DNA of 64,000 nt from Brevibacillus brevis (GTDB taxonomy: Bacteria > Bacillota > Bacilli > Brevibacillales > Brevibacillaceae), in assembly GCF_031583145.1 (NCBI RefSeq), contig NZ_CP134052.1, positions 1-64,000 on the forward strand, read 5' to 3'. A program made the position numbers and the translations under genes. This document shows, piece by piece, positions 1 through 61,900 of this stretch. Each line of letters opens with the position of its first letter. The first letter of the stretch is position 1. The notes under the pieces were generated by a model, which worked only from the letters and a program-made list of their open reading frames with translations, searched no databases and was not told the DNA's origin.

Positions 1-65
1 CAAACCAAGTCGCGAAGCGACTTATAAGATTGCGGTAGCAATCTTTATATCCTGCACTTACGCAC

Positions 66-9193: not shown

Positions 9194-9269
9194 TGTATTT
9201 TGCAACTCAAAAATGCAGAGTTTGGCGGCCAATTTATGCAGAACACTGCCAACATCAATACAAAAGAAT

Positions 9270-11500
<2,231 letters not shown>

Positions 11501-11647
11501 TCCTCTCACTCCCTCAGATTTTCGCCAAATCCAAGGGTAGATTTTGTAGGGGGATGTTGGCAAGTGCCTTTTTCATGGCCTCAGAATTGCGGTGGAACTC
11601 TGCAGTTTTCCGCCGCAATTCTCTGCACTTTTATCCTGCCATAAACA

Positions 11648-16164: not shown

Positions 16165-16239
16165 TTAACGGATCCCCTTCTTCCAATTCTCAAGAAAATT
16201 CTCCAGACGATCCAATGTTTGCTCGATGTTTTTTGCCAT
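16165..16239 (-). CDS. 24-residue peptide, first gene of P2 operon
   Basis: ATG 16239 has a near-perfect AAAGAGGAGAGAG site and follows promoter P2 and the common leader. The peptide is a single amphipathic helix (starts MAKNIEQTLDRLENF, ends NWKKGIR). It could be a leader peptide or a real micro-protein. Position immediately behind a strong expression signal is the main support. Confidence 0.5.
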   Translation of the reverse strand: MAKNIEQTLDRLENFLENWKKGIR

Positions 16240-16266
16240 GTAACTCTCTCCTCTTTCTTGGGTTGG

Positions 16267-16315
16267 TTGGTTATCGCCGTAACTATATAATATCATAAAC
16301 ATAGATAATTTTCAA
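16267..16315 (-). promoter_or_regulatory. Promoter P2 plus GCGATAACC leader
   Basis: Minus strand: TTGAAA, 17-bp spacer with ATCTATGTTTATGA, TATTAT, then GTTACGGCGATAACCAACC at about the transcription start. The leader sequence is shared with P3, P4, P5 and with element A copies. Confidence 0.8.
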
Positions 16316-16416: not shown

Positions 16417-16788
16417 CTAGTATCGAATTTCCCTGATGATCTTCGTGTCGTACACGCACAATTCAGTTTCACCCGATGGATACGTGACTGCGATAGCTTT
16501 CGTACCTTTCTGGCGTTTCCCACTGTAATCAATGTCCTTATCATCAATGATCGCCGCCAATATACAATCACCGAACACCCGCGCCCCTTCTTTGCTCGAA
16601 CTGAAATAAACACCTTTACCATACGTTCCGATTTGCGGTTTGAAGAAGGAGGAAAGGATTTGCTCACAACGTTTTGGAGTAGTGCCGTGATACCATGTGT
16701 TGAAACATTTTTGCTGCAGAGCAGATAAATCGTCTTGAACCTCTTGAATTTTTGCTCCCTTGTAAGGTTCTTTCACTACCACGATCAT
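16417..16788 (-). CDS. PARP-like mono-ADP-ribosyltransferase fused to a DUF3846 N-terminus
   Basis: 123 residues. Residues 1-26 (MIVVVKEPYKGAKIQEV..LSALQQ) match the N-terminus of the DUF3846 protein at 17288, including the ribosome site. From residue 33 the chain is a minimal ADP-ribosyltransferase: WYHGTT (H34), GKGVYFSSS (Y61) and E109-L-C-V-Y-D, i.e. the H-Y-E triad with the same local context as PARP catalytic domains (HGS/T, GKGIYF, E-x-x-V-Y-D). It should transfer ADP-ribose from NAD to a protein or nucleic acid. It could be a defence/antitoxin-less toxin or a host-modifying factor; the target is unknown. Element A1 sits directly upstream. Confidence 0.75.
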   Translation of the reverse strand: MIVVVKEPYKGAKIQEVQDDLSALQQKCFNTWYHGTTPKRCEQILSSFFKPQIGTYGKGVYFSSSKEGARVFGDCILAAIIDDKDIDYSGKRQKGTKAIAVTYPSGETELCVYDTKIIREIRY

Positions 16789-16810
16789 GCAAATCTCTCC
16801 TTTTGTGATA

Positions 16811-17016
16811 GGTTATCGCTGGGCGGCCCCGGTGGGGCATCGCCGTGGCTCAGACGGACCACGGAGCGCGCGGCTCACTGTACCCGAAGGGCGACACGCG
16901 GCGGCTGCCGCGTAGGGAGTATGGCGTAGCCATATACAGTGAGAAGCCCGTGGTACGCTGACCAAACGGCGATGAGCCTCTTTAGGGGCCGCAGGCTCCT
17001 GGCGCAGCCGGGAGCC
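16811..17016 (-). repeat. Element A1, structured leader repeat
   Basis: First of seven copies of a roughly 200-bp repeat placed directly upstream of minus-strand genes. Nested stems: CGGCCCC/GGGGCCG, CATCGCCGT/ACGGCGATG, ACCACGG/CCGTGGT, CTCACTGTA/TACAGTGAG, two small tip hairpins, then a separate hairpin GGCTCC..GGGAGCC. In A1 one tip stem is ACGCGGC-ggct-GCCGCGT instead of ACGGC-gca-GCCGT, a paired change that supports structure. Ends in GCGATAACC, the common leader. Confidence 0.85.
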
Positions 17017-17035
17017 ATCCTTGCCTTTAAAAATG

Positions 17036-17287: not shown

Positions 17288-17599
17288 CTAAACAAGTTGT
17301 ACTGCCATTCGGTTGAGGATCATGGTTGCCAACCTCACCTCAGAATCACTAAGCGAAACAAAATTCCCTGTATCATCAGCCTTTGTAATGAAAACTGTGC
17401 CAAAAAACAACTCCCCATTGACAACAATATTGGGTTCAAGATCCAAGAACAAAAATTCCTCATTGCACACAAGATCAAAACCGTTTATCAATTCCATCAC
17501 TTCAATTCGTCCATCAACGATTTGCTGCAGGGCAGATAAGCCACCTTCAATCTCCCGAATCTCTGCGGCCTTGTTGGGTTCTTTTACTACTACGATCAT
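17288..17599 (-). CDS. DUF3846 family protein
   Basis: 103 residues from ATG 17599. Starts MIVVVKEPNKAAEIREIEG, then ALQQIVDGRIEVM, LVCNEEFLFLDLEPN, GTVFITKADDTGNFVSLSD: the usual order of DUF3846, a small beta-rich family common on conjugative elements and phages of Bacillota, of unknown biochemical role. Element A2 lies upstream and provides the leader. Its N-terminal coding segment is duplicated in the ADP-ribosyltransferase gene at 16417. Confidence 0.8.
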   Translation of the reverse strand: MIVVVKEPNKAAEIREIEGGLSALQQIVDGRIEVMELINGFDLVCNEEFLFLDLEPNIVVNGELFFGTVFITKADDTGNFVSLSDSEVRLATMILNRMAVQLV

Positions 17600-17619
17600 G
17601 CGGATCTCTCCTTTGTAGT

Positions 17620-17821
17620 GGTTATCGCTGGGCGGCCCCGGTGGGCCATCGCCGTGGCTCAGACGGACCACGGAGCGCGCGGCTCACTGTACCCGGAGGG
17701 CGACACGGCGCAGCCGTAGGGAGTATGGCGCAGCCATATACAGTGAGAAGCCCGTGGTACGCTGACCAAACGGCGATGAGCCTCTTTAGGGGCCGCAGGC
17801 TCCTGGCGCAGCCAGGGAGCC
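17620..17821 (-). repeat. Element A2
   Basis: Complete copy of the nested-stem repeat, directly upstream of the DUF3846 gene. Tip hairpins ACGGC-gca-GCCGT and TATGGC-gca-GCCATA; final hairpin of the GGCTCCtgg..ccaGGGAGCC subtype. Confidence 0.85.
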
Positions 17822-17895
17822 ATCCTTATCACTAAAGAACATCCCTGAAACACTCACAAAGGCTTTTCTGGCTTCCTTGTGTCTTATCCTCATTT

Positions 17896-18029
17896 GGGTT
17901 AGGGGTGGGAGGGATAAAGAAGCGCACAGGAACCTAGAGGGCTTTGGCGGGCGCTTGCATCCGCCTAGGCCCTCTGGTTATCGGGCGATTCCCCGACCCC
18001 CGGCGGCGGCCTCCGGCTGCCGCAACGCC
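17896..18029 (-). repeat. Element B1
   Basis: First of five copies of a 135-bp folded repeat found upstream of element A. On the minus strand: CGGCAGCCGGAGGCCGCCG hairpin, CGGGG-aatcg-CCCG hairpin, an AGAGGGC..GCCCTCT stem enclosing a GGCG..CGCC hairpin, then a pyrimidine-rich tail ending CCCCTAAC. An ATG follows a few bases later in all five copies. Confidence 0.8.
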
Positions 18030-18064: not shown

Positions 18065-19618
18065 TCAAAAGCTATGGCATAGATTGCGATGACGAATGTT
18101 AAAGGACAAGATGGCATTTTTTATGACTTCCGCAATCGCAAAAGCCATTTCAACCGGGACCCCATTCGCGATTTGTTGTTGTTTCGATGCCTTTTTCCCC
18201 AGGAACACAAAGCTGTCATCCAATCCCATGAGCCGCGCCCCTTCTCGAACGGAAATAATTCGTTGCTCCTCCGGATGTAGGATCATGGATTTACGGGGAT
18301 TGACCAAGGTAATCGATGGCTTGTCCCATTCCAATCTCTTATACATGTTGCTGTGCTGGCCCTTCGGCCGCAGGCCCACGGGGATGTCCTTGACGTTCCC
18401 TCCTGGTTTTACATGCTTCATCCGTTCCAGCGTAATGTCTTTGGCATCGCTCACATCTAACTGATTCGGGACTCGATCATTCAGGCCGGCAAACGCCTCC
18501 CGAACCGTTTTGTATTGGGATAGTTTGTAATACGGTTTTGGGATGTCAATTTTCCCGATTTTGCTCCCGATAAAGATTGCTCTTTCCCTTAACTGCGCCG
18601 ATCCATAATCGGCCGCATTCATAACGTCATGTGTAATCTCAAAGTCAGATAATGCCTCCAGGATTTCTTCTTTGAATTGCCCGCCGCCTGCAGTAAGGAT
18701 CTCCGGAACGTTTTCCAAGACGAAAACCTGGGCATTTTCATTGGTTTTGACTGCATCGATAAATTCTCTAACCAATTTGTTATTGGGATTATCCAGGTAA
18801 TTCGTGTACCGGTTGGAATTGGAGAATCCTTGGCAGGGACTTCCCCCGATCATGACCGGCGCTTTGGTGATCCGGGACTTATCGAAGGTTTTTATATCAG
18901 CCTGGACAACATGTCCCCCTAAGTTGTAGCGATAAGTCTGAACCGCGTCCTCGTCGTGTTCAAGGGCAAAAACCAGGTCAAATCCTGCCTGTTGAAAGCC
19001 CACATCCATGATCCCAGCCCCACTAAAAAGGCTGGCCACTTGAAGAGGAATGGCAAGCTGATTGAGTTTCTTCTGGATGCTGTAAAGCCTACTTGGTCGG
19101 GAAACCGTCGCTTCCGGAAGAAAATCAAAGAGAGAAATTTGTTCGTAACTGACGTGATCGCCAACGGCCTCTTTTAACTGGTCCCGCGACAGGACAATGC
19201 TGGCTGTCTTCTTAATTCGGAGAAAATCCGTGATATGGGAAACGGTGGCTTTCCCACGGAACGCTTTCTTAATTCCGCTGGCCACGGAAGAAAAGAACGA
19301 TTGCTTTTCCTCCACGTACCCCTCCACCACAATTCGATCCTCGAAGATCTCCACCTGCAGGTAATCGACGCCTTTGAAAACCGACAATGCTTTTTTGTGA
19401 CGAATGTCGATGACCGGCTTTAGGTCCTCTTTTGTTCTCCGCTTGGATACAACGTTATCGTTTTGATCGTCAGACGACAGAATGATGATTTTTCGGTTTT
19501 TTGCATCGATGACGTATTTGTAATGCCGGCCTGGTTGAAAGACTGTTTCTTTCAGCTCTTTATCCTGGAGGTAAATCCCCCTGGAGGAATTTTTTCCGAC
19601 TCTTTTCTTTAGTAACAT
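18065..19618 (-). CDS. C5-cytosine DNA methyltransferase with a novel N-terminal region
   Basis: 517 residues. The methylase core starts near 192 (QVASLFSGAGIMDVGF) with catalytic GGSPCQGFS (C262), LENVPEI near 301, QLRERAIFIGS near 341, RLMGLDDSF and IANGVPVEMA near the end. The first 190 residues are not part of standard Dcm enzymes: a beta-rich part (YKYVIDAKNRKIIILSSD) and a basic middle (GIKKAFRGKATVSHITDF) that may target the enzyme or bind DNA. No cognate nuclease is nearby, so a modification-only, anti-restriction role is likely. Element A3 supplies its leader. Confidence 0.88.
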   Translation of the reverse strand: MLLKKRVGKNSSRGIYLQDKELKETVFQPGRHYKYVIDAKNRKIIILSSDDQNDNVVSKRRTKEDLKPVIDIRHKKALSVFKGVDYLQVEIFEDRIVVEGYVEEKQSFFSSVASGIKKAFRGKATVSHITDFLRIKKTASIVLSRDQLKEAVGDHVSYEQISLFDFLPEATVSRPSRLYSIQKKLNQLAIPLQVASLFSGAGIMDVGFQQAGFDLVFALEHDEDAVQTYRYNLGGHVVQADIKTFDKSRITKAPVMIGGSPCQGFSNSNRYTNYLDNPNNKLVREFIDAVKTNENAQVFVLENVPEILTAGGGQFKEEILEALSDFEITHDVMNAADYGSAQLRERAIFIGSKIGKIDIPKPYYKLSQYKTVREAFAGLNDRVPNQLDVSDAKDITLERMKHVKPGGNVKDIPVGLRPKGQHSNMYKRLEWDKPSITLVNPRKSMILHPEEQRIISVREGARLMGLDDSFVFLGKKASKQQQIANGVPVEMAFAIAEVIKNAILSFNIRHRNLCHSF

Positions 19619-19643
19619 CTCTCGTCACCTTCTCATGGTTATT

Positions 19644-19844
19644 GGTTATCGCTGGGCGGCCCCGGTGGGCCATCGCCGTGGCTCAGACGGACCACGGAGC
19701 GCGCGGCTCACTGTACCCGGAGGGCGACACGGCGTAGCCGTAGGGAGTATGGCGCAGCCATATACAGTGAGAAGCCCGTGGTACGCTGACCAAACGGCGA
19801 TGAGCCTCTTTAGGGGCCGCAGGCTCCCGGCGCAGACGGGAGGC
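19644..19844 (-). repeat. Element A3
   Basis: Complete copy upstream of the 18065 methyltransferase gene. Its last hairpin is of the GCTCCCG-gcgcaga-CGGGAG subtype; relative to A1/A2 the two sides of this stem change together. Confidence 0.85.
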
Positions 19845-19880
19845 ATCCTTGCCTTTGATTGGCGTGGCCAAAATCAAACT

Positions 19881-20863: not shown

Positions 20864-21703
20864 TTATTCCTCGTGGCAGTCTTCATATTTGACACCCAAA
20901 ATGTAATCCACTCCCTTTTGAGCCAAGCCGGCCGCCTGCACCACCAGTTTTTTATCGTTTTTCAACGCTCTGAGCCAACTGCCAATATACGATGCGCTGT
21001 TTTCGATAGTGGAGTTATCAATGCCGGCCTTCGCGCACAGCATGGCCGCGCCGATCTCTGCAACTAGCTCCTCTTTGGAGTAGACCTCATCTCCAAATGC
21101 GGCTACTGTCTCGATCCCCGGACGGTTCAGGCGGTTTTTATGTCCGGTAGAGTGTATCATTTCATGGAACAAGGTACTGTAATATTCCTCTTTCTTCGGG
21201 TAGTCATTGATCGGAGGAACACTGATATAGTCCTTAGCCGGCACGTAGTAAGCGCGTCCAGAACTAAAATAGATTTCCGGAGCATCCGCAAAGCCGTTTA
21301 CAATGTTTTCGGCTTCTGCAATCGGGTCATGCTCGAATGAAATTTCCCCTCGCTTGCTTTCCAGCCCTTCACATTGGGTATTGATCTCAAAAACGGAGTA
21401 GTAGCGCAAGAACGGAACCTTTTCTTTGTCGCCGGTTTCCTCGTCCTCAACTTCAAGCCATCTCCAAAATACAACGATATGGGCTTTTTCTCCCTTCTTC
21501 ACATGGCCGCCTGCCTCAGTAATTTGCTTCCATGTAGCGTACTCGCCCGCAGGCAGAAGCAGAGTATTGATTCCTCTATATGGCGTTTGTGTCTTCCAGC
21601 TTACAGCCGCATTGACAACCCACGGTCTGCGCCAAGGAATGACCCCTTGCTCCAGCATCTTCATAATTCTTTCCGTGACCATTTCATAGATTTTTTGAGA
21701 CAT
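20864..21703 (-). CDS. ArdC-like antirestriction protein / zincin metallopeptidase
   Basis: 279 residues from ATG 21703, behind GAGGAGCG. N-terminal ArdC-type ssDNA-binding region (about 1-120: VIPWRRPW, PYRGINTLLL, KKGEKAHIVVFWRW), then a metallopeptidase-like domain with HEMIH (180-184) and H188 (STGHKN) as zinc ligands, and AEIGAAMLCAKAGI downstream. ArdC proteins protect incoming ssDNA of conjugative plasmids from host nucleases. Length fits the family (about 290). The leader is element A4, so it shares control with other A-linked genes. Confidence 0.85.
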   Translation of the reverse strand: MSQKIYEMVTERIMKMLEQGVIPWRRPWVVNAAVSWKTQTPYRGINTLLLPAGEYATWKQITEAGGHVKKGEKAHIVVFWRWLEVEDEETGDKEKVPFLRYYSVFEINTQCEGLESKRGEISFEHDPIAEAENIVNGFADAPEIYFSSGRAYYVPAKDYISVPPINDYPKKEEYYSTLFHEMIHSTGHKNRLNRPGIETVAAFGDEVYSKEELVAEIGAAMLCAKAGIDNSTIENSASYIGSWLRALKNDKKLVVQAAGLAQKGVDYILGVKYEDCHEE

Positions 21704-21732
21704 TTTACATCGCTCCTCGTTGGATTCTGGTT

Positions 21733-21933
21733 GGTTATCGCTGGGCGGCCCCGGTGGGCCATCGCCGTGGCTCAGACGGACCACGAGGCGCGCGGCTCAC
21801 TGTACCCGGAGGGCGACACGGCGCAGCCGTAGGGAGTATGGCGCAGCCATATACAGTGAGAAGCCCGTGGTACGCTGACCAAACGGCGATGAGCCTCTTT
21901 AGGGGCCGCAGGCTCCTGGCGCAGCCGGGAGCC
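21733..21933 (-). repeat. Element A4
   Basis: Complete copy upstream of the ArdC-like gene; final hairpin GGCTCC..GGGAGCC. On its upstream side (minus-strand sense) lie a terminator and element B2. Confidence 0.85.
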
Positions 21934-21953
21934 TTCCTTGCCTTTCCCCAATA

Positions 21954-21985: not shown

Positions 21986-22023
21986 CTTCTTGATCTTTTC
22001 AGCTTCCTGGGGATGTCTTTCAT

Positions 22024-22158
22024 GCGTTAGGGGTGGGAGGGATAAAGAAGCGCACAGGAACCTAGAGGGCCTTGGCGGGCGCTTGCGGACGCCTAGGTCC
22101 TCTGGTTATCGGGCGATTCCCCGACCCCCGGCGGCGGCCTCCGGCTGCCGTAACGTCC
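22024..22158 (-). repeat. Element B2
   Basis: Complete copy; on the minus strand its end CCCCTAACGC is followed directly by ATG of the short frame beginning MKDIPRKLKRS. Confidence 0.8.
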
Positions 22159-23403: not shown

Positions 23404-23793
23404 TTATTCGCTCCCGATCTGATACGTCTGCAAAAACTCCCTGGCCGATTCCTGGTATTCGGAAATGAATTGTTCATACTGCTGTGCCGTCATATGAGAC
23501 GGTTTCTGCTCCCCTGCCAGGAAACGCAGGTAGACATTTACGTGATCCGCGAGAGGTTGTCGATCAAAACAATGCTGCCGTTGCATGTCGAATCGTCCCT
23601 TGTAGGTATTCCCGTCTTCCCATTCAATCCAAAAATCACACTTATCATAACCGCCGGTATCCGGCGCAGTCCGTGCCGCGTTATTGATTGCTGTTTCAAC
23701 GTCGTTCCAAGTAGAAAACGTTTTTTTGAAAAGGTCGATATGCCTGCCTTCTACCCGTGCAAAAGTGATCTGCTTTACCGATACTTTTTCCAT
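23404..23793 (-). CDS. LPD25-like (large polyvalent protein associated) domain protein
   Basis: 129 residues from ATG 23793 behind GGAGCTG. The motif FARVEG..STWNDVETAINNAARTAPDTGGYDKCDF..WEDGNTYKGRFD resembles the LPD25 domain that elsewhere is part of giant polyvalent proteins of phages and conjugative elements; here it is free-standing. The role is unknown but it is thought to act on incoming DNA or host defence. The leader contains GCGATAACC and a shortened hairpin derived from element A. Confidence 0.6.
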   Translation of the reverse strand: MEKVSVKQITFARVEGRHIDLFKKTFSTWNDVETAINNAARTAPDTGGYDKCDFWIEWEDGNTYKGRFDMQRQHCFDRQPLADHVNVYLRFLAGEQKPSHMTAQQYEQFISEYQESAREFLQTYQIGSE

Positions 23794-23813
23794 ATTTTTC
23801 AGCTCCTTGGAGT

Positions 23814-23846
23814 GGTTATCGCTTGGCAGCCCCGGTCGGAGCTGCC
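23814..23846 (-). promoter_or_regulatory. GCGATAACC leader with minimal hairpin
   Basis: Minus strand: GGCAGCTCCGACCGGGGCTGCC hairpin in 22 bases, then AAGCGATAACCACTCC and AAGGAG. It looks like element A with nearly all internal stems deleted, keeping the leader. Confidence 0.6.
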
Positions 23847-23888: not shown

Positions 23889-24149
23889 CTACAAATCACT
23901 AGATAAACTCCCTTCGTAATACCAGTCTTCACTTCGCAGAGACTGGGAATAGACCCGCCCTTCCTCAATCATATCCCCGTCTCCTTTGGTGACTTTGTAG
24001 GTGTCAATGGTTGCTTGTCCGTCAAAGCTTACCATTTCGACCGTGAAATACTCGGCATGTGAATCCTCCTCGTTAAACTGGATCGATGTTATCTGGCAGC
24101 ACCATCTCTCCTCGATATAGCATTTGAGTTCATTTTTGAATTTGCTCAT
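23889..24149 (-). CDS. Hypothetical small protein
   Basis: 86 residues, behind GGGAAATG. Contains beta-strands (YFTVEMVSFDGQATIDTYKV) and an acidic C-terminus. No family recognised. Element A5, lacking the first GGTTATCGCT bases, lies 24 bp upstream. Confidence 0.5.
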   Translation of the reverse strand: MSKFKNELKCYIEERWCCQITSIQFNEEDSHAEYFTVEMVSFDGQATIDTYKVTKGDGDMIEEGRVYSQSLRSEDWYYEGSLSSDL

Positions 24150-24173: not shown

Positions 24174-24363
24174 GGCGGCCCCGGTGGGCCATCGCCGTGG
24201 CTCAGACGGACCACGAGGCGCGCGGCTCACTGTACCCGGAGGGCGACACGGCGCAGCCGTAGGGAGTATGGCGCAGCCATATACAGTGAGAAGCCCGTGG
24301 TACGCTGACCAAACGGCGATGAGCCTCTTTAGGGGCCGCAGGCTCCTGGCGCAGCCGGGAGCC
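24174..24363 (-). repeat. Element A5 (leader-less copy)
   Basis: All stems are present but the copy starts at GGCGGCC, so the GCGATAACC leader is missing. This is the only A copy without it. Confidence 0.85.
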
Positions 24364-24383
24364 TTCCTTTCCTTTCCCAATAA

Positions 24384-24412: not shown

Positions 24413-24452
24413 TCCTTTTTGATCTTTTCAGCTTCCTGGAGATGTCTTTCAT

Positions 24453-24587
24453 ACGTTAGGGGTGGGAGGGATAAAAAAGCGCACAGGAACCTAGAGGGCT
24501 TTGGCGGGCGCTTGCGGCCGGCTAGGCCCTCTGGTTATCGGGCGATTTCCCGACCCCCGGCGGCAGCCCCCGGCTGCCGTAACGCCC
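24453..24587 (-). repeat. Element B3
   Basis: Complete copy; the short frame beginning at its end is nearly identical to that at B2 (RKLKRS-R/K-RRPPAV). Confidence 0.8.
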
Positions 24588-26601: not shown

Positions 26602-26760
26602 TTATCGAAAGGGCAGAGCCTTGTCAATCGCATACAGTAGAATCAAAATAACGATGACGATAATAAACGTAGTAAACGGATTCTCCCCCGCATAGGTGAT
26701 AACATCTCTAAACCAATCATCTTGCAAAGCGAAAGCCCTCCATTCGCTAAAATTATCCAT
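26602..26760 (-). CDS. Small one-pass membrane protein
   Basis: 52 residues from ATG 26760: soluble N-terminus (MDNFSEWRAFALQDDW), then a long hydrophobic helix (FTTFIIVIVILILLYAI). The ribosome site is weak, and its start coincides with the -35 of the plus-strand sRNA promoter, so transcription of the two could interfere. Confidence 0.45.
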   Translation of the reverse strand: MDNFSEWRAFALQDDWFRDVITYAGENPFTTFIIVIVILILLYAIDKALPFR

Positions 26761-26850
26761 AGACAGCGAAAAGCTTTATGATATAATGGCAATAACTGCT
26801 CCTTTTGGGAGTTGGTTATCGCTGAGATCGGGGTGGTTCCCGGTCTTTTT
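26760..26850 (+). ncRNA. Candidate trans-acting antisense sRNA (promoter, RNA, terminator)
   Basis: Plus-strand promoter TAGACA (26760-26765), 16-bp spacer, TATAAT (26782-26787) with extended TGA just before. Transcript would start near 26794 and end at GATCGGG-tggtt-CCCGGTC followed by T5ACT5 (to 26850), about 57 nt. The RNA contains ACTGCTCC-tttt-GGGAGTTGGTTATCGCTG. GTTGGTTATCGCTG is the perfect complement of the CAGCGATAACCAAC leader of many plasmid genes, and GCTCCTTT is the complement of their AAAGGAGC ribosome site. It can itself fold into a long hairpin (ATAACTG/TGGTTAT). Confidence 0.6.
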
Positions 26851-26855
26851 ACTTT

Positions 26856-27819: not shown

Positions 27820-27984
27820 TTATTGAACGCGCCAATGGAAGTTATTTTTCCATTGGTTCGCTAATTCCTTCTCTCTTTTCAAACGTTCCCTTTCTAAACG
27901 TTCCTCTCTACGACATACTATCATACCAATAATGACGCTGATCCATACTCCGTTAAGTGTAATCATCCATCCTAAAAGATCCAT
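27820..27984 (-). CDS. Small membrane protein with coiled coil
   Basis: 54 residues from ATG 27984 behind AAAAAAGGAGCG. One membrane helix (WMITLNGVWISVIIGMIV), then a highly charged coil (RREERLERERLKREKELANQW). It is the first gene downstream of promoter P3 and the common leader, which strongly supports it as a real gene. Function unknown. Confidence 0.65.
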   Translation of the reverse strand: MDLLGWMITLNGVWISVIIGMIVCRREERLERERLKREKELANQWKNNFHWRVQ

Positions 27985-28016
27985 CTTGCCTCGCTCCTTT
28001 TTTAGTGGGTGTTTGG

Positions 28017-28062
28017 TTTATCGCTGTAACTATACAATAGCATAAATATAGTTATTTTTCAA
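28017..28062 (-). promoter_or_regulatory. Promoter P3 plus leader
   Basis: Minus strand: TTGAAA, 17-bp spacer with ACTATATTTATGC, TATTGT, then GTTACAGCGATAAACC (one extra A in the leader). Confidence 0.8.
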
Positions 28063-28147: not shown

Positions 28148-29047
28148 TTATGCCGCATTTCCCGATCGTGCGACAAAAGCCCAGCAGCCACGGCTTACAG
28201 ATTCAAAATCATTGTATATCTGCAGAGTTTGGCGAACCTTTTCTTTCCAGTGTTTGTTTTTTTGGGCTTTCTTTGTCACTTCGATGACTTCGTACAATTG
28301 TTGGAGGCTTGCCGTTCCCCCCACGCTTTCCAGGGCAGCTTGCACCAAATCCCTCCAGGTCACTTTCTCCGAAAATCGAATGTCACTGACAACCTTTTGT
28401 GTGATTGCAACCGGAAACACCCATATATCTTCTTTGCGAAACACCAGCAGATGTTCATGGACAATACGAACAATATTTTTCTGATATGACGTCTTGTCCG
28501 ATACGCAATTATGCTGTTCTTTGATAAAGTGCATATCTGTTTCTCCGTACCAGTTCATGTCTTTCTGAATGGGGAAGTATCTCCCATTCTTCTTCACGTC
28601 ACCGATCAGGATAGCCATTCGGCCACCGTTTCGCAGGCTTGCATATGCCTTTCCATGGACGAAATTCAATTTCCGGATAAATTCATCATACGAGCTGCAT
28701 CGAGATAAATCGTCCGGATGGGGTTTGTCTCCCCACATAACACCTGAATACTGGATGATGTCATGATAAGGGGGATGTATGAAAATCATGTCGCTACCCT
28801 CCGGCATTTCGTCCGTTAATGCGTTCCACCCTCCCCATCTTTCGCTGAGGTCCAAGTGAACACTATCCGTATACCCTATTTCCCTGGCAACCTCGAAACC
28901 TGTACCGCCTCCAGCAAATAATTCCAGGAAGTGATTGGGCTTGTAATACTTGAGAAGGTCGAATATAACCCACCCACTACAATTTCCCCTGTAGGATGCA
29001 TTCCCCCATTTGCCACGATTTTTGTAGGATAAGATGCTAGTTAACAT
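28148..29047 (-). CDS. AdoMet-dependent DNA methylase-like protein
   Basis: 299 residues from ATG 29047, which lies inside the end of the upstream gene (11-bp overlap). FLELFAGGGTG (about 40-50) is an AdoMet-binding motif, and FIHPPYHDIIQYS (about 88-100) matches the (D/N/S)PP(Y/F) catalytic motif of amino-methyltransferases, with His in the first position. The C-terminal third (VTWRDLVQAALESVGG..LQQLYEVIEVT) looks like a DNA-binding winged-helix region. It probably methylates DNA as an anti-restriction activity; the altered first residue of the PPY motif leaves activity open. Leader motif is upstream of its operon partner. Confidence 0.7.
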   Translation of the reverse strand: MLTSILSYKNRGKWGNASYRGNCSGWVIFDLLKYYKPNHFLELFAGGGTGFEVAREIGYTDSVHLDLSERWGGWNALTDEMPEGSDMIFIHPPYHDIIQYSGVMWGDKPHPDDLSRCSSYDEFIRKLNFVHGKAYASLRNGGRMAILIGDVKKNGRYFPIQKDMNWYGETDMHFIKEQHNCVSDKTSYQKNIVRIVHEHLLVFRKEDIWVFPVAITQKVVSDIRFSEKVTWRDLVQAALESVGGTASLQQLYEVIEVTKKAQKNKHWKEKVRQTLQIYNDFESVSRGCWAFVARSGNAA

Positions 29048-29288
29048 ATGGAAAACCCTCCCGATCGGGAATCGGTTCAAACCGGCAAACAAGCCTAATC
29101 CCAAACTGATCGTTCATGACATTGATGATTTTTTCAATTTCTTCTTTCTGGGGGGCCAGGATGATATACTTGATGTCATTCCCTTCCCGACTCCACTCTA
29201 AAGAAAAAACCTGCATAATCCGAAAAATGACCGTGGCTCGAATTTTCTTTTCCTGCTCTGTGGCAGCTTCGATCAAGAGCATTTGCAT
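29037..29288 (-). CDS. Hypothetical protein coupled to the methylase
   Basis: 83 residues. Helical N-terminus (IEAATEQEKKIRATVIFRIM), then a beta-rich part. Its end overlaps the start of the methylase by 11 bp, indicating translational coupling. No family recognised. GAGGAGCGAG precedes the start, behind the GCGATAACCAACC leader. Confidence 0.5.
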   Translation of the reverse strand: MQMLLIEAATEQEKKIRATVIFRIMQVFSLEWSREGNDIKYIILAPQKEEIEKIINVMNDQFGIRLVCRFEPIPDREGFPYVN

Positions 29289-29322
29289 TTGACTCGCTCC
29301 TCTTCGGTTTTTGTGGTTGGTT

Positions 29323-29390
29323 ATCGCTTATAAAAGAATGGGCGGTTGATTATCGCGTTATTTGGAACGGGCGGCTAAGCCCGTTCCACT
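29323..29390 (-). promoter_or_regulatory. Leader with duplicated motif and hairpin
   Basis: Minus strand: GGAACGGGC-ttagcc-GCCCGTTCC hairpin, then GCGATAATCAACC and, 24 bases later, GCGATAACCAACC. The hairpin is followed by a T-run only on the plus strand, so a second small plus-strand RNA is possible here, but I see no plus-strand promoter. Confidence 0.45.
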
Positions 29391-30648: not shown

Positions 30649-30798
30649 GAAAAATCCCCTCCGGTCAACAGTGATGAATTCATGATAGCATGAACTCTTT
30701 TTTCACTGTCTACCTTAAGGGGATAATACCAATTTTTGAGTTAATCGTACTTCTTTTTACTGAAATGATTAGCCATAAAACATAGCTCCTTTGCTTTG

Positions 30799-30849
30799 AA
30801 TTGGTTATCGCTGTAAATATATAATAACATAAACGAAGATTATTTGCAA
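30799..30849 (-). promoter_or_regulatory. Promoter P4 plus leader (gene lost to IS3)
   Basis: Minus strand: TTGCAA, 17-bp spacer with ATCTTCGTTTATGT, TATTAT, ATTTACAGCGATAACCAATTC, AAAGGAGC, then ATG GCT AAT ... ending after 11 codons at the IS3 end. The original gene has been displaced or deleted. Confidence 0.78.
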
Positions 30850-30988: not shown

Positions 30989-31088
30989 CAACACCGTATA
31001 ACATAAGGCTTCCAGAACATTTAGGTCCTGTTGTTGCTGCTGAGTACGATGTTCAGTCTACAACTAACATCGCTCCTTTAGTTTGGTT

Positions 31089-31289
31089 GGTTATCACTGG
31101 GCGGCCCCGGTGGGCCATTGCCGTGGCTCAGACGGACCACGGAGCGCGCGGCTCACTGTACCCGGAGGGCGACACGGAGCAGCCATAGGGAGTATGGCGC
31201 AGCCATATACAGTGAGAAGCCCGTGGTACGCTGACCAAACGACGATGAGCCTGTTTAGGGGCCGCAGGCTCCCGGCGCAGACGGGAGGC
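31089..31289 (-). repeat. Element A6 (orphan)
   Basis: Complete copy with a C-to-T change in the leader (GTGATAACC) and a degraded tip hairpin. Downstream AAAGGAGCG ATG opens only a 5-codon frame (MLVVD), so its gene is gone. The final hairpin is of the CGGGAG subtype. Confidence 0.8.
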
Positions 31290-31715
31290 TTCCTTTCTAT
31301 TTTTTCAGCTTCCTGGTATAACTAGAGAAATTCTTGGGTATCCTGGGAATACTAGGAGGTTTTTTGTGTTTTCAAAGGCGAACGTCACGCCATGACAAAT
31401 AGCCCGACAGGTTTCCCTTGTCAGGCTATGTATAGTTAATATTAGCTTGTATTCATTTCAAATTTCACTTCCTCGGTAAGCCGATCTTTGTAGTTCGACT
31501 TCCGGACCCGTTTCATCGATCACAACCATTCCCCACCATTCCCGATCTCCACGGGCTGGGATAAAAAGCGCGGTGTGTACGATATAGGATCAGCTATGTA
31601 GTTATATGGTGGCCACCACTAACAGTATGACCATCTCAAAAGTGTTTCATACATTTCATCTTAGAGTAGCCCACAAATGCCTTTCCTGGGTTTTTACAAT
31701 GGTTTTCTATCATTT
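31290..31715. other. Decayed gene region
   Basis: No intact gene. A terminator-like stem TAGCCcGACA..TGTCAGGCTA lies at about 31402-31427. On the minus strand 31447-31590 encodes protein-like fragments in two frames (TALFIPARGDREWWGMV; RKSNYKDRLTEEVKFEM), suggesting a frameshifted pseudogene. Confidence 0.45.
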
Positions 31716-31853
31716 GCGTTAGGGGTGGGAGGGATAAAGGGGCGCACAGGAACCTAGAGGGCTTTGGCGGGCGCTTGCGGACGCCTAGGCCCTCTGGTTA
31801 TCGGGTGATTCCCCGACCCCCGGCGACGGCCTCCGGCTGCCGCCGTAACGTCC
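31716..31853 (-). repeat. Element B4
   Basis: Complete copy with small changes in the loops. The following short frame (MIENHCKNPGKAFVG) resembles the one at B1 (ARKAFVS). Confidence 0.78.
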
Positions 31854-51950: not shown

Positions 51951-51985
51951 AAAAGAGACATGTAGGGAAGCCCTACATGTCCCCC
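51951..51985 (-). terminator. Terminator of the RadC gene
   Basis: Minus strand: GACATGTAGGG-ctt-CCCTACATGTC then TCTTTTATT; overlaps the 3' end of the RadC gene. Confidence 0.75.
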
Positions 51986-52428
51986 CTTTCTTTCAGCGAA
52001 TAGTACGTGTTCTCACCTAAAATGATGTGGTCTAAAACACTTATTCCTAACAATTCCCCGGCTTGCTGTAAATTTCTCGTTACAGCAACATCTTCCCGGC
52101 TAGGCGAAACATCTCCGGATGGGTGATTGTGACAAACAATAATTGAGGCTGCCTTATGTAGCAGGGCTTCGGTGTATACTTCCCTGGGATGAACAATGGA
52201 GGAATCCAAAGAACCTACATGAACTGTTGAAACACCAACAATCCGATTCTTAGTATTAAGGAACATCACGATAAAGTTTTCTCTGTCTGTACTGCAGAAG
52301 GTTTCAAAATAGTGGCGAAATATATCAGCCACATCCCTTGGCATCTTTATTTGTTTCTCATCATAACCGTAATGAAATGATTTCACCTTTTCCAATTTCA
52401 CTTGATAAATGGAAATTCTCTTTGCCAT
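51973..52428 (-). CDS. RadC-type JAB/MPN domain protein
   Basis: 151 residues. RadC core: HVGSLDSSIVHPREVYTEAL, then IIVCHNHPSGDVSPSREDVAVT (H-x-H, D metal ligands of the JAB fold) and SVLDHIILGENTYYSL. The helix-hairpin-helix half of chromosomal RadC is missing, as in most plasmid copies. Role uncertain (DNA repair or anti-restriction). Element A7 supplies the leader. Confidence 0.9.
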   Translation of the reverse strand: MAKRISIYQVKLEKVKSFHYGYDEKQIKMPRDVADIFRHYFETFCSTDRENFIVMFLNTKNRIVGVSTVHVGSLDSSIVHPREVYTEALLHKAASIIVCHNHPSGDVSPSREDVAVTRNLQQAGELLGISVLDHIILGENTYYSLKERGDM

Positions 52429-52453
52429 TCATTATCTCTCCCTTGGCTTAGTT

Positions 52454-52654
52454 GGTTATCGCTGGGCGGCCCCGGTGGGCCATCGCCGTGGCTCAGACGG
52501 ACCACGGAGCGCGCGGCTCACTGTACCCGGAGGGCGACACGGCGCAGCCGTAGGGAGTATGGCGCAGCCATATACAGTGAGAAGCCCGTGGTACGCTGAC
52601 CAAACGGCGATGAGCCTGTTTAGGGGCCGCTGGCTCCCGGCGCAGACGGGAGGC
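52454..52654 (-). repeat. Element A7
   Basis: Complete copy upstream of the RadC gene; final hairpin CGGGAG subtype. Confidence 0.85.
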
Positions 52655-52730
52655 TTCCTTAATCACTAGACAAGATCCAGGAGAAGCCCACAAACGCTCT
52701 TCCTGACTTCATGGAGTCCTTCCCTCATTT

Positions 52731-52865
52731 GCGTTAGGGGTGGGAGGGATAAAGAAGCGCACAGGAACCTAGAGGGCTTTGTCGGGCGCTTGCGGCCGGC
52801 TAGGCCCTCTGGTTATCGGGCGATTCCCCGACCCCCGGCGGCGGCCTCCGGCTGCCGTAACGTCC
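52731..52865 (-). repeat. Element B5
   Basis: Complete copy; following short frame MREGLHEVRKSVCG, comparable to those at B1 and B4. Confidence 0.8.
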
Positions 52866-53370: not shown

Positions 53371-53466
53371 AACCTTCATCCTTTACCAATTGTATTTTGC
53401 AACTCAAAAATGCAGAGTTTGGCGGCCAATTTATGCAGAACACTGCCAACATCAATACAAAAGAAT

Positions 53467-55697
<2,231 letters not shown>

Positions 55698-55891
55698 TCC
55701 TCTCACTCCCTCAGATTTTCGCCAAATCCAAGGGTAGATTTTGTAGGGGGATGTTGGCAAGTGCCTTTTTCATGGCCTCAGAATTGCGGTGGAACTCTGC
55801 AGTTTTCCGCCGCAATTCTCTGCACTTTTATCCTGCCATAAACAACCAATAATCATGAGTACATTTTAGCAATGCCGATAAGTAAAGGACA

Positions 55892-57030: not shown

Positions 57031-57273
57031 CTACGGCCTTTTCAACGAAAAAACCCAATCGTATCCGTCTCCGTTATCGATGTATACAGTTCGCCTCACC
57101 ACTTTCACTGAGCATTCTTTGCCACGAACGGTATTGTACGCATTAAAAATTGGATTATAGTCCTTGTCCATTTTTTCAAATTTCACTTCACTCAGAAAGA
57201 TGCAATTTCTTTGTATCGATCCTACCAAAGACTCCATAACACTCAGAATTTCAACCGTATCAATTACACTCAT
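57031..57273 (-). CDS. Hypothetical protein behind promoter P5
   Basis: 80 residues from ATG 57273 with AAGGAGG upstream. Mixed alpha/beta, no motif. Preceded by the common GCGATAACCAACC leader and promoter P5, so probably coregulated with the other leader-bearing genes. Confidence 0.55.
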   Translation of the reverse strand: MSVIDTVEILSVMESLVGSIQRNCIFLSEVKFEKMDKDYNPIFNAYNTVRGKECSVKVVRRTVYIDNGDGYDWVFSLKRP

Positions 57274-57300: not shown

Positions 57301-57350
57301 GTTGGTTATCGCTGTATAAATATAATAACATAAACATAGATTTACTTCAA
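57301..57350 (-). promoter_or_regulatory. Promoter P5 plus leader
   Basis: Minus strand: TTGAAG, 17-bp spacer with ATCTATGTTTATGT, TATTAT, ATTTATACAGCGATAACCAACC. Best match to the family consensus. Confidence 0.82.
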
Positions 57351-58946: not shown

Positions 58947-61900
58947 TTAGTGAATCCGATTTGTTTTTACCACTTCCCAAACAGGATTTAATATCCTAAT
59001 AGGAACCGTATCAGTTTCTACATGGTATTGACCGTCTGGCCCGGTGTGATTGTAAGTAAGAACAAAGGTAAAGTTATAGGTTCCATTCCGGAGCTTATCA
59101 AAGTTTTCTCGCCACATGTCACCATTCCAAGTTGTTTTATCAGAAGAGGTTAGATCTGATGTTAAATTCGTCGTACTCATGGTGACTTTCAACGTTGCTC
59201 CTTTCACTGGAGATGTACCGGTATTGGTGGAATCCGCATATAAGATAAATTTCTCTCCTCCCCAAAATACATCATAGGTACGAGGACTTTCTGGATTTCC
59301 CGTTTTCTGCGTGTTATAAGCTTTACGCAAGGCATCCCAGCGGTCAGTATGTTTGACATAACCCTTTACCCACAAATCGTATACTTCGAACTGAGTTTGC
59401 GCTCCTTCAATAGTAATGGTATAAGCATTCCCGATAGAGTCGCTATCGGACCCAGGAGTACATTTTTCTTCTACGTCCCCTTCGTCATTTTCGATCTCTT
59501 CGCATTGTTCATATGTCACTTCGAAGTCTACACGATAGTTGGCAATAATCTTGAAGCCTTCTGCCTTCACAACATACTTTTCTGCCAACAGCTCTTGTAC
59601 TCTATCACGATTTGTCGGAACGGTTGTGCCGTGGTAATAATTCGACTGAACTTGTTGATTCGTGTTAAGCGAATACGTTTGATCGATACCTGGACCATTT
59701 ACTGTCATCGGAGTTGTAGGCGGCCAATTAGTCATCGAGCTTCCCATCGCATTCCAAGAAGTCGGGTTAACAGAGACATTTACATTTTTGTACTCGTCCC
59801 CTGAATACGAAGATTCTAATTCGGCACGCTTTTCATTGATCGCATTATTTATTTGCTGATTAATTTGGTCCATAGCTTGATCGATTTTGTCTTGGTCAAT
59901 CTCTACTTCAATTCTCGCCTTCTCTTTCTCATAAACACCATCATTCGGAAGGTTTAATAGTCGATTGCCACTGTCATAGACACGAATCTTCATCTGGCCT
60001 CCAGGAATATTTCCACCAGGGCCGCCACCGCCTCCGCCTCCGCCAGGTGGTGGACTACCATTGACAAGAACTGGCCAAGAACCCGTATTGTCCTTCCAGG
60101 TAGTTTCGTTAGATGGCGAATTCTTATTCGGGTTAATGTTTGCAGTAAAATTCATCGACACATCCGGATAAACAACACTAACCTTGATAATCTTTGATTC
60201 TCCGGCCTTTAGTCCGGTGACATCAACGGTTTGAGATTTGCTCTCTTTATCAAACTTGAGCAAAACCTTAGAGCTTTGTGTGCTGTCTCCTTTGTTCATG
60301 ACTTTGACTTCAACTTCCGCTGCTGTACCAGCATTTTGCGGATCTTTCGGAGTAATCTTGAAGTAATCTGGATCGACAGCTAAGTTTTCTTTAGAACCTC
60401 CGACCGGATCGATAGTACCGTCAGGTTTTAGTTCCCACTCTGCGCAGTTATCATCCCAACGCGACTCTTCCTCGGGGTCAGGCTTAAAGGAATAACCCAA
60501 AGTGACGTTAATGCAAGCCTCCAGAATGGTTGTTTTCGATGGATAAGTAGCATTTCCCACAAAAGGTTGGTCATCCTCATAAGCCTTAATTTTAATATTA
60601 TTGGAGTTAATGGTCTTTCCATCTTTCCACCGCATAAAGAAGAGCGGTACGTGATCGAATTTTCCATCATTGCCGTAGTAGGTAGTGATTTCGATACTAT
60701 CTCCAGGCTTTGGTGCCCCATTTGAGGTACTACAAACCGTGGTATCTCGTCTTTCCTTACATACAAGAATGGAAATGACATTAGGGTCAACGTAAAGATT
60801 TTCCATCGACGGCTTATCACCTTCAACCTGAATAATGATCTCGCCCTCGCAAGGATCCGCCCCAGTATCATCGATCATTGTCTGGCTTCTCCAGGAAGCC
60901 TTGTAAATTAATGATTCAATGTTTCCATCCTTATCTTGCGGGATAGTGAAGGAAGACTCATAGACGTCCTTATTATCTGATCGTAAATGCTTATATGTCG
61001 GTGTTCCGGAAACCCCTTCGGGATTATACCACCCAACCCAAAGACTTGCTTTTTTTTCAAATTTAAAGTAAATCGTGAAATCGCCATTCAAATCATCCTT
61101 TGTAATCTTTAAAGGAATAGGCGCAGTCCTTGGGTCGATGGTTGTCCCACCGTAGGTCATTGTTACTCCATAACACCCATCGCCACCACCAGTGTTCCCT
61201 TCGGCGGTCTGAATATTAAAGACTGTCTCACAGAAGGTTGGGTCATCAGGAACAAATGAGATAACAATGGTGTCTCCTGGAGAGTATTTCGAATATCCCC
61301 CAGGAATTTTTGCAGTATACGGAGATTTTGCCGCAACGGTTCCGATTAAGGTTCGGGTCCCACCACGTATCTCATAATACTTTCCGGCTACAGGGGCGGA
61401 AAAGACAATATTCGTGTTGAGTGTTCCATTCTCGTTCGTGATCTGGCGGAAATCGACAGGCCCAATGTCTTCTACAAGATCAGAAGCAGAACCCGCCGAA
61501 GTAGTATTCGGTGGCGCACCGTAATACTTAAAAGTGTCCGGCCATTTTACCGTACAATTTTTCACTTCAAGGGTAACTTCCCACTCACAATCAAGATCTT
61601 CGTTCATACCGCCCTCAAACTGGATCTTGATTTTGTATGTACCCGCTTTATTCAAGACTAGACCGTCGGGACCTACATCCAAGGTCTGCCTTGAACTGTT
61701 CCCAAAGATCTTAGTGTAGGAGGATTGCCCAGGATATTGGACAAGCCACACTTCGCTGCCAGCATAGATTGAACCATCGTCGGGGTCTTTTTCAAAAAGG
61801 GTAAAATTTCCCCCAGTGGTATTATCGGAATGATAATAGATGTCAGCTCCAAGATAGCTGGTGAGAACTGCCCCATTATATACAGTTCTTGCTCGATTGT

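Follow-up and report, generated by a model that had tools for sequence, protein, structure and literature searches.

How establishment genes of a plasmid come to be expressed fast and yet transiently in Gram-positive recipients is an open question. The closest known architecture to the one described here is EGeRS1 of the plasmid pLS20. In the accessible text of its description, the EGeRS1 elements are GC-rich and rich in inverted repeats and reside immediately before the Shine-Dalgarno sequences of ardC and other establishment operons, with no evident sigma-A promoter, and in the element EGeRS1-B a constitutive promoter is absent and read-through is blocked, by a mechanism that its authors state to be unknown (PMC8708921).

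The window analysed here, which is the whole stretch of DNA under study, comprises bases 1-64,000 of a contig of 78,992 bases, one of three in a Brevibacillus genome of 6.23 Mb. This contig is a plasmid with a GC content of 0.45. Its conjugation proteins include a VirB4-type ATPase, TrbL and a coupling protein that is VirD4-like and belongs to the CD1115 family; a further, relaxase-like protein is matched by the Relaxase, MobP3, RlxS and MobP1 models, in all cases below their cut-offs. An insertion sequence of the IS21 type is present twice (9194-11563 and 53391-55760); the copies are identical over a 300-nt reference, and the one copy tested matches IstB. Judged from its sequence, a locus on the plus strand stands about an even chance of encoding a trans antisense small RNA that represses around eleven minus-strand genes in the leading (establishment) region. 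Were this true, a common leader read by one antisense RNA in trans would offer a compact and directly testable answer to the question raised above, and the plasmid would use this RNA to switch off its leader genes, which include anti-restriction types, once settled in a new cell.

The plus-strand locus and its predicted RNA

On its plus strand, the locus is probably a small-RNA gene, at which the two signals of a base-pairing sRNA, a promoter of its own and a rho-independent terminator, are both predicted (Table 1). The promoter, with a −35 hexamer TAGACA at 26760-26765, a −10 hexamer TATAAT at 26782-26787 and a TG one base 5' of the latter, scores 11 out of 12 and ranks first among the 25 promoter-like sites in the 18-kb stretch between 14 and 32 kb, a number of sites that shows no excess over shuffled sequence (22.0 ± 4.0). 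No other TG-extended site on the plasmid, whichever the strand, scores 11/12 or more, and the combination of a promoter of that grade with a strong terminator within 90 nt is encountered once on the plasmid and in none of 200 first-order Markov random plasmids, a control that was generated without the regional excess of terminators. Within the same 14-32 kb, 50 terminator-like sites stand against 21.2 ± 4.2 expected, many of them on the plus strand, which weakens the terminator as evidence for an sRNA gene. The first-pass annotation of this DNA had proposed the promoter, a terminator with a T-run and a transcript of about 57 nt, and all three are borne out, the last by agreement with the predicted span of the RNA.

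The predicted RNA folds into a stem whose 5' side contains GCUCCUUUU and whose 3' side contains the anti-leader, followed by the terminator, and it matches model R1, which was itself built from this RNA and a homologue in the genome G018. Both strands of the locus fold better than shuffled sequence, with the lower z-score on the minus strand (−5.7 versus −3.9 on the plus strand). A search against Rfam provided no match at gathering score within the window, and a loose threshold yielded only sub-gathering matches. Readings of the locus as a tracrRNA or anti-repeat and as an attC site were considered and dropped. For a type I toxin-antitoxin system, in which an antisense RNA would lie over the translation start of a small hydrophobic peptide, a candidate peptide is encoded by a membrane-like open reading frame of 52 residues downstream of the locus on the minus strand (26602-26760), whose start is located 37 nt beyond the Shine-Dalgarno sequence.

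Table 1. Positions of features on the plasmid; the strand is that of the listed feature.
Feature	Position	Strand	Basis
Predicted sRNA promoter TAGACA-16-TATAAT, TG-extended −10	26760..26787	+	promoter scan, 14-32 kb and whole plasmid
Predicted small RNA, about 57-60 nt	26794..26852	+	fold; 5' end inferred from −10
GCTCCTTT, complementary to AAAGGAGC Shine-Dalgarno sites	26798..26805	+	motif search
Anti-leader GTTGGTTATCGCTG	26811..26824	+	leader search
Predicted intrinsic terminator, stem and T tract	26824..26855	+	terminator scan; hairpin 26824-26847 and TTTACTTTTT
Candidate oriT nic site TATCCTGC behind 8-bp inverted repeat	48..55	+	consensus (C/T)ATCCTG(C/T) from PMC3772185
Leader, one mismatch, class A, 24-aa ORF at 16239	16266..16279	-	leader search, ORFs
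Class A promoter, 7 nt between −10 and leader	16287..16315	-	promoter scan
Leader, class B, gene 16417-16788	16808..16821	-	leader search, Pfam
Leader, class B, DUF3846 gene 17288-17599	17617..17630	-	leader search, Pfam
Leader, class B, C5 DNA methylase 18065-19618	19641..19654	-	leader search, Pfam
Leader (exact), class B, ArdC-like gene 20864-21703	21730..21743	-	leader search, Pfam
Leader, 129-aa gene 23404-23793	23811..23824	-	leader search
Leader with inserted A, class A, 54-aa ORF 27820-27984	28013..28026	-	leader search, ORFs
Class A promoter	28034..28062	-	promoter scan
Two leader-like copies (29316, 29345), 83-aa gene 29037-29288	29316..29358	-	leader search
Leader, class A, 11-aa ORF 30741-30776	30800..30813	-	leader search, ORFs
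Class A promoter	30821..30849	-	promoter scan
Leader, class B, only a five-codon ORF behind (by eye)	31086..31099	-	leader search
Leader (exact), class B, RadC gene 51973-52428	52451..52464	-	leader search, Pfam
Leader (exact), class A, 80-aa gene 57031-57273	57301..57314	-	leader search, ORFs
TG-extended class A promoter TTGAAG-17-TATTAT, leader 7 nt downstream	57322..57350	-	promoter scoring
Block 1 copy 1, GC-rich, structured	16811..17022	-	similarity search
Block 1 copy 2, query copy, own leader included	17612..17868	-	similarity search
Block 1 copy 3	19640..19850	-	similarity search
Block 1 copy 4	21732..21939	-	similarity search
Block 1 copy 5 (also cited as copy 24155), abuts gene 23889-24149, without leader	24174..24369	-	similarity search
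Block 1 copy 6	31088..31295	-	similarity search
Block 1 copy 7	52453..52702	-	similarity search

A leader shared by minus-strand genes

The leader CAGCGATAACCAAC, searched with up to three mismatches, yields 17 matches versus 4.25 expected, a number reached in none of 100 shuffles. Fifteen of the 17 are on the minus strand, which is unsurprising on a plasmid that, as assigned by eye, holds most of its genes there. Three matches with three mismatches each (13219 and 55833 on the plus strand, 38914 on the minus strand) were left out as being at chance level, and those at 23811, 28013 and 29345 were retained despite the same number of mismatches, each being followed by a Shine-Dalgarno sequence or a further leader. 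The resulting set contains 14 copies, all on the minus strand and including that at the sRNA locus, of which 11 precede genes. Each of these 11 genes has a Shine-Dalgarno core, separated by 3-14 nt from the leader in front of it and by 8-10 nt from the start codon behind it. The sequence GCGATAACCAAC occurs six times in the 6.23-Mb genome, in all cases on this plasmid and on the same strand, and in its own mRNA the leader is predicted to be half to almost wholly unpaired (0.48-0.96, 12 copies folded).

Exact complementarity at 11 genes, as claimed in the first-pass annotation, is found for the 14-mer at three of them (starting at 21703, 52428 and 57273), whereas the others deviate by one to three mismatches, with the copy at 28013 relying on an inserted A. 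Similarly, the claim that the RNA also complements the ribosome sites behind the leaders stands for two of the 11 genes (27984 and 30776, the latter being the actual position of an ATG previously placed at 30766), where AAAGGAGC is exact. This sequence is also present at 31072, at the sRNA locus and at 59197 on the minus strand, and the remaining leader genes contain AGGAG, GGGAG or AAGGT as core. The leaders at 31086 and 29345 and the seven GC-rich elements of the window are additions to the earlier inventory.

The leader is found in three unrelated upstream contexts, as would be expected if it were recognized by a trans-acting reader. In the four copies of class A, it is preceded by a promoter with TTGAAA, TTGCAA or TTGAAG as −35, a spacer of 17 nt and a TG-extended −10 (TATTAT or TATTGT), which in all four cases ends 7 nt before the leader, thus defining the leader as predicted 5' end of the mRNA. 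In the six copies of class B, an element of about 200 nt with a GC content of 62-69% immediately precedes the leader, and no sigma-A-like promoter is found in the 60 nt preceding any of these six leaders. The hairpin before the leader at 23811 resembles only the last 33 nt of this element (88% identity) and is regarded as its remnant. The third context is provided by the leaders at 29316 and 29345, which reside behind another hairpin.

Among the products of the leader genes, the proteins of 80, 83 and 129 residues did not match any Pfam family. The neighbouring genes 16417-16788 and 17288-17599 have a common start region; the latter matches DUF3846, and the former extends into a sub-threshold match to ART-PolyVal (ADP-ribosyltransferase). 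Further downstream of the 11-residue ORF at 30741-30776, a transposase-type gene is encoded. A further anti-leader on the plus strand, at 29316-29388, is followed by a good terminator (29363-29388) and has no recognizable promoter.

The elements preceding class B leaders belong to a repeat family, termed block 1, of which an eighth copy is found beyond the window at plasmid position 65230-65394. Its copies are 92-98% identical to the query copy over the aligned parts, with a GC content of 0.62-0.69 compared to 0.45 for the plasmid, and six of them fold with −114 to −131 kcal/mol per 300 nt. Since copy 5 precedes a gene without leader, element and leader are separable. A different intergenic repeat, block 2, is located at 17873-17981, 22020-22109, 24449-24538, 31715-31801 and 52721-52816; it has ends like GCGTTAC...CTAACGC with GATAACCAGAGGGCC in its interior, and it is also present in the Brevibacillus genomes G006, G016 and G018, where the inspected copies follow T runs. 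A second GC-rich repeat family with the core CCTGGTTCTTCCGGATCTGCAGCCGGCG occurs at 2177, 33082, 46447, 46544, 46642, 51143, 51241 and 57390, partly in tandem with a period of 97-98 nt.

Homologues in relatives and competing interpretations

Model R1 has led to a third homologue in the genome G011 (E 4.8e-9). Among 398 genomes sampled from the class, the model matches in 3, all of them Brevibacillus. The three homologues have TGnTA(T/C)AAT, GCTC(C/T)TTTT and the terminator hairpin in common, although with a poor T tract in G011 and with −35 regions in G018 and G011 that agree with the consensus in at best three of six positions. In their alignment, 93% of cells pair compared to 35-59% in slid controls, but only one pair changes on both sides, and with 337 of 500 shuffles reaching the observed values, these three sequences give no covariation support for the RNA. 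The proposal of a plus-strand small RNA is thus favoured by promoter, terminator, two homologues that keep the stems and the −10, and a minus strand on which no conserved ORF was seen, whereas covariation does not contribute to it.

Searches for relatives of the leader did not reveal another plasmid that carries it. The combined pattern of leader and Shine-Dalgarno sequence matches in 23 of 39 genomes of the family, with nine sites on this plasmid and zero to four in each of the others, compared to zero to two per strand for a reversed control; the matches inspected in three genomes (G017, G004 and G011) were judged to be coincidental. No other plasmid with leaders was found among near and distant plasmids, distant phages, viral contigs and genome contigs; in the genome contigs, leader or elements retrieved four stretches, one from Brevibacillus panacihumi (G016) and three that proved unrelated on inspection. 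The repeated leader is also absent from the six plasmids with the nearest ArdC (of 3083 matching records), one of which was covered as a whole and five in stretches. When pLS20 and these six plasmids were scanned with model R2, the best matches, of 24.8 bits (E 2.8e-4) on pLS20 and of 19.7 bits (E 0.011) on a plasmid of B. borstelensis, proved to be plain terminators, and in 38 genomes the same model gave three strong matches and eleven of 21-25 bits, the latter being taken for terminator-like chance hits.

The homologues bear on an alternative that we consider unlikely, in which the locus is a Brevibacillus sRNA of chromosomal descent whose CU-rich loop targets Shine-Dalgarno sequences or something else, the match to the leader being minor or unimportant. 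In both G018 and G011, the homologue adjoins what we read as chromosome-type genes, in a genome where no leader family was found. For G018, its own version of the leader gave 28 sites versus 10 for the control, of which two are followed by a Shine-Dalgarno-like stretch and an ORF of at least 30 codons, which is taken to be chance, and the plasmid version gave none; for G011, the respective numbers are 12 sites versus 14 and a single site that is not leader-like. The presence of the RNA in these genomes without a leader family suggests that its older role was a different one. Their relationship extends over a 178-column alignment, which includes a palindrome upstream of the RNA, yet the match of the plasmid copy to the leader of the plasmid is exact and keeps the register of the Shine-Dalgarno sequence, and within its genome GCGATAACCAAC is confined to this plasmid. 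The upstream region shared by G011 (L070 1411-1500) and G018 (contig C58) covers about 75-90 bp before the −10 and starts at the palindrome TTCCCAAGCGCTTGGGAA, which we take to be cre-like.

The first-pass annotation had itself offered a second view, namely a relic leader of a lost minus-strand gene with fortuitous signals on the plus strand. In the version considered here, to which we assign a still lower probability, the minus strand of the locus is the leader and Shine-Dalgarno sequence of a gene that is lost or weakly translated, such as the 52-residue ORF. The lower folding z-score on the minus strand agrees with this view, but the copy at the locus has no sense promoter (a score of 5 compared to 10.5-11.5 at the four class A copies), and the ORF, apart from its distance to the Shine-Dalgarno sequence, finds no relative by tblastn among 72,556 plasmids, with a cut-off as loose as E 10. 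In G018, the same leader-like segment has structured blocks in front of it, arranged as in class B, and an old leader would be compatible with this as well, whereas no minus-strand ORF was seen to be conserved between G018 and G011, with alignment gaps that are not multiples of three, and the −10 on the plus strand is kept in three genomes. Finally, terminator-like sites are abundant on this strand, which speaks for the relic, and the combination of promoter and terminator was found in none of the 200 random plasmids, which speaks against it. The least probable reading is that the leader is recognized by a protein or the ribosome, whether to enhance translation, as a DNA operator at +1 or, behind the GC-rich elements, as a processing site, and that its antisense copy is no regulator. 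The position of the leader at the +1 predicted for class A promoters would suit an operator, and GCGATAACCA is also contained in some block 2 repeats away from gene starts, but no palindrome was seen in the leader, and this reading does not explain why the antisense copy has a promoter and a terminator of its own.

Proposed action and relation to known systems

For the trans antisense RNA, complementarity to the leaders is a circular argument that proves nothing, since the sRNA locus itself is a leader copy read backwards. Independent support comes from the three contexts of the leader, from the homologues in genomes where no leader family was found and from the fact that this is the only one of 14 copies with an antisense promoter (with a score of 12.5 compared to 8.5 or less at the other 13). 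It also speaks for this reading that the homologue in G018 has a block 2-like segment at a distance of about 5 bp and a copy of block 1/2 at about 290 bp, the repeat families that precede leader genes on the plasmid. As a scan of the plasmid for duplexes with the full-length sRNA is confounded by the GC-rich elements, the 31-nt 5' domain alone was used. With this domain, predicted duplexes at the 11 leader genes have a mean energy of −35.7 kcal/mol (−30.0 to −39.5), a value that is circular for the leader part, compared to −18.7 for 80 other ORFs bearing a Shine-Dalgarno sequence, whose best duplex (−31.8) surpasses that of one leader gene (−30.0).

The direction of transfer is suggested by a motif. 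Among 13 (C/T)ATCCTG(C/T) sites on the plasmid, only that at +48 has an adjacent inverted repeat with 8-bp arms, and, across contig ends that were joined on the assumption of a circular plasmid, it is followed after about 150 bp by an RHH-like gene and then by the relaxase-like gene; motif, inverted repeat and location upstream of a relaxase-like gene are as expected of a MOBP-type oriT. The cut by MOBP relaxases follows the G of the nic motif. According to the accessible text on these enzymes, they remain on the 5' end of the strand cut at this motif (PMC3772185), and the plus strand would thus enter first, in the direction of rising coordinates. In this case the transferred strand would serve as template for the leader genes but not for the sRNA.

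In the proposed mechanism, the first 31 nt of the RNA would pair with leader and Shine-Dalgarno sequence and block ribosome binding. In cells that already have the plasmid, this RNA would be present and the leader genes kept low, whereas in a fresh recipient it would be absent, and ArdC, the methylase, DUF3846 and others could be made at once. Synthesis of the complementary strand would then render the sRNA gene transcribable and the burst would be shut off, in what might be described as an RNA-based zygotic induction. Silencing after establishment, as envisaged in the first-pass annotation, fits the geometry, with the leader at the 5' end of class A mRNAs, the Shine-Dalgarno sequence covered and the sRNA lacking a template on the putatively transferred strand, although the circular complementarity cannot add to it. 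More tentatively, and in our view possible rather than likely, strand geometry alone might set burst and silence without any protein repressor, with anti-defence genes templated by the incoming strand and the repressor made only after second-strand synthesis. Class B genes would then be expressed through structured elements that may act on single-stranded DNA or RNA.

The setting resembles EGeRS1, as block 1 is GC-rich and structured and located directly before the Shine-Dalgarno sequences of ardC and other genes, and pLS20 also has a common leader before the Shine-Dalgarno sequence of five genes. However, the identity of more than 60% that defines EGeRS1 is not found, with a blastn comparison between both plasmids returning coding DNA of ardC and short matches, none of them linking EGeRS1 to the elements, and block 1 is thus not a member of EGeRS1 despite the similar setting. 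As far as the accessible text on pLS20 extends, its transferred strand is the non-template strand, in contrast to the template strand inferred here, and it describes no trans antisense gene (PMC8708921). By eye, EGeRS1-B of pLS20 (L124 45760-46420) contains a T-rich segment about 300 nt upstream of the Shine-Dalgarno sequence that is complementary to its own leader and Shine-Dalgarno sequence, which possibly reflects sequestration in cis, a cis counterpart of the sRNA. In EGeRS2/Reg of p576, as portrayed in the same accessible text, a repressor that is absent in the recipient permits a transient burst followed by shut-off, as predicted here, but it is a ribbon-helix-helix protein acting on DNA operators rather than an RNA (PMC8708921).

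A likeness to leading-region anti-defence islands and Frpo single-strand promoters, within what the accessible text on them covers, concerns the presence of anti-restriction and methylase genes on one strand, here templated by the inferred T-strand (PMC11541004). A difference is that class B leaders lack a sigma-A-like site in the preceding 60 nt. Plasmid sRNA genes are known from pXO1 (XrrA and XrrB, which act in trans) and pNDM-HK, although the accessible parts of these reports do not describe them as controlling establishment genes (PMC7843513, PMC5880898). Among the matches listed in a literature search, with preprints and most subscription papers outside its range, none describes a plasmid-encoded sRNA that governs a group of establishment genes. 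FinP and RepX are two-stem RNAs that act on mRNA leaders. Like the RNA predicted here, both are short structured antisense RNAs encoded on plasmids, but as described in the accessible text, FinP and traJ form a pair, whereas in the present case about eleven mRNAs could be targets of the one RNA (PMC8136791).
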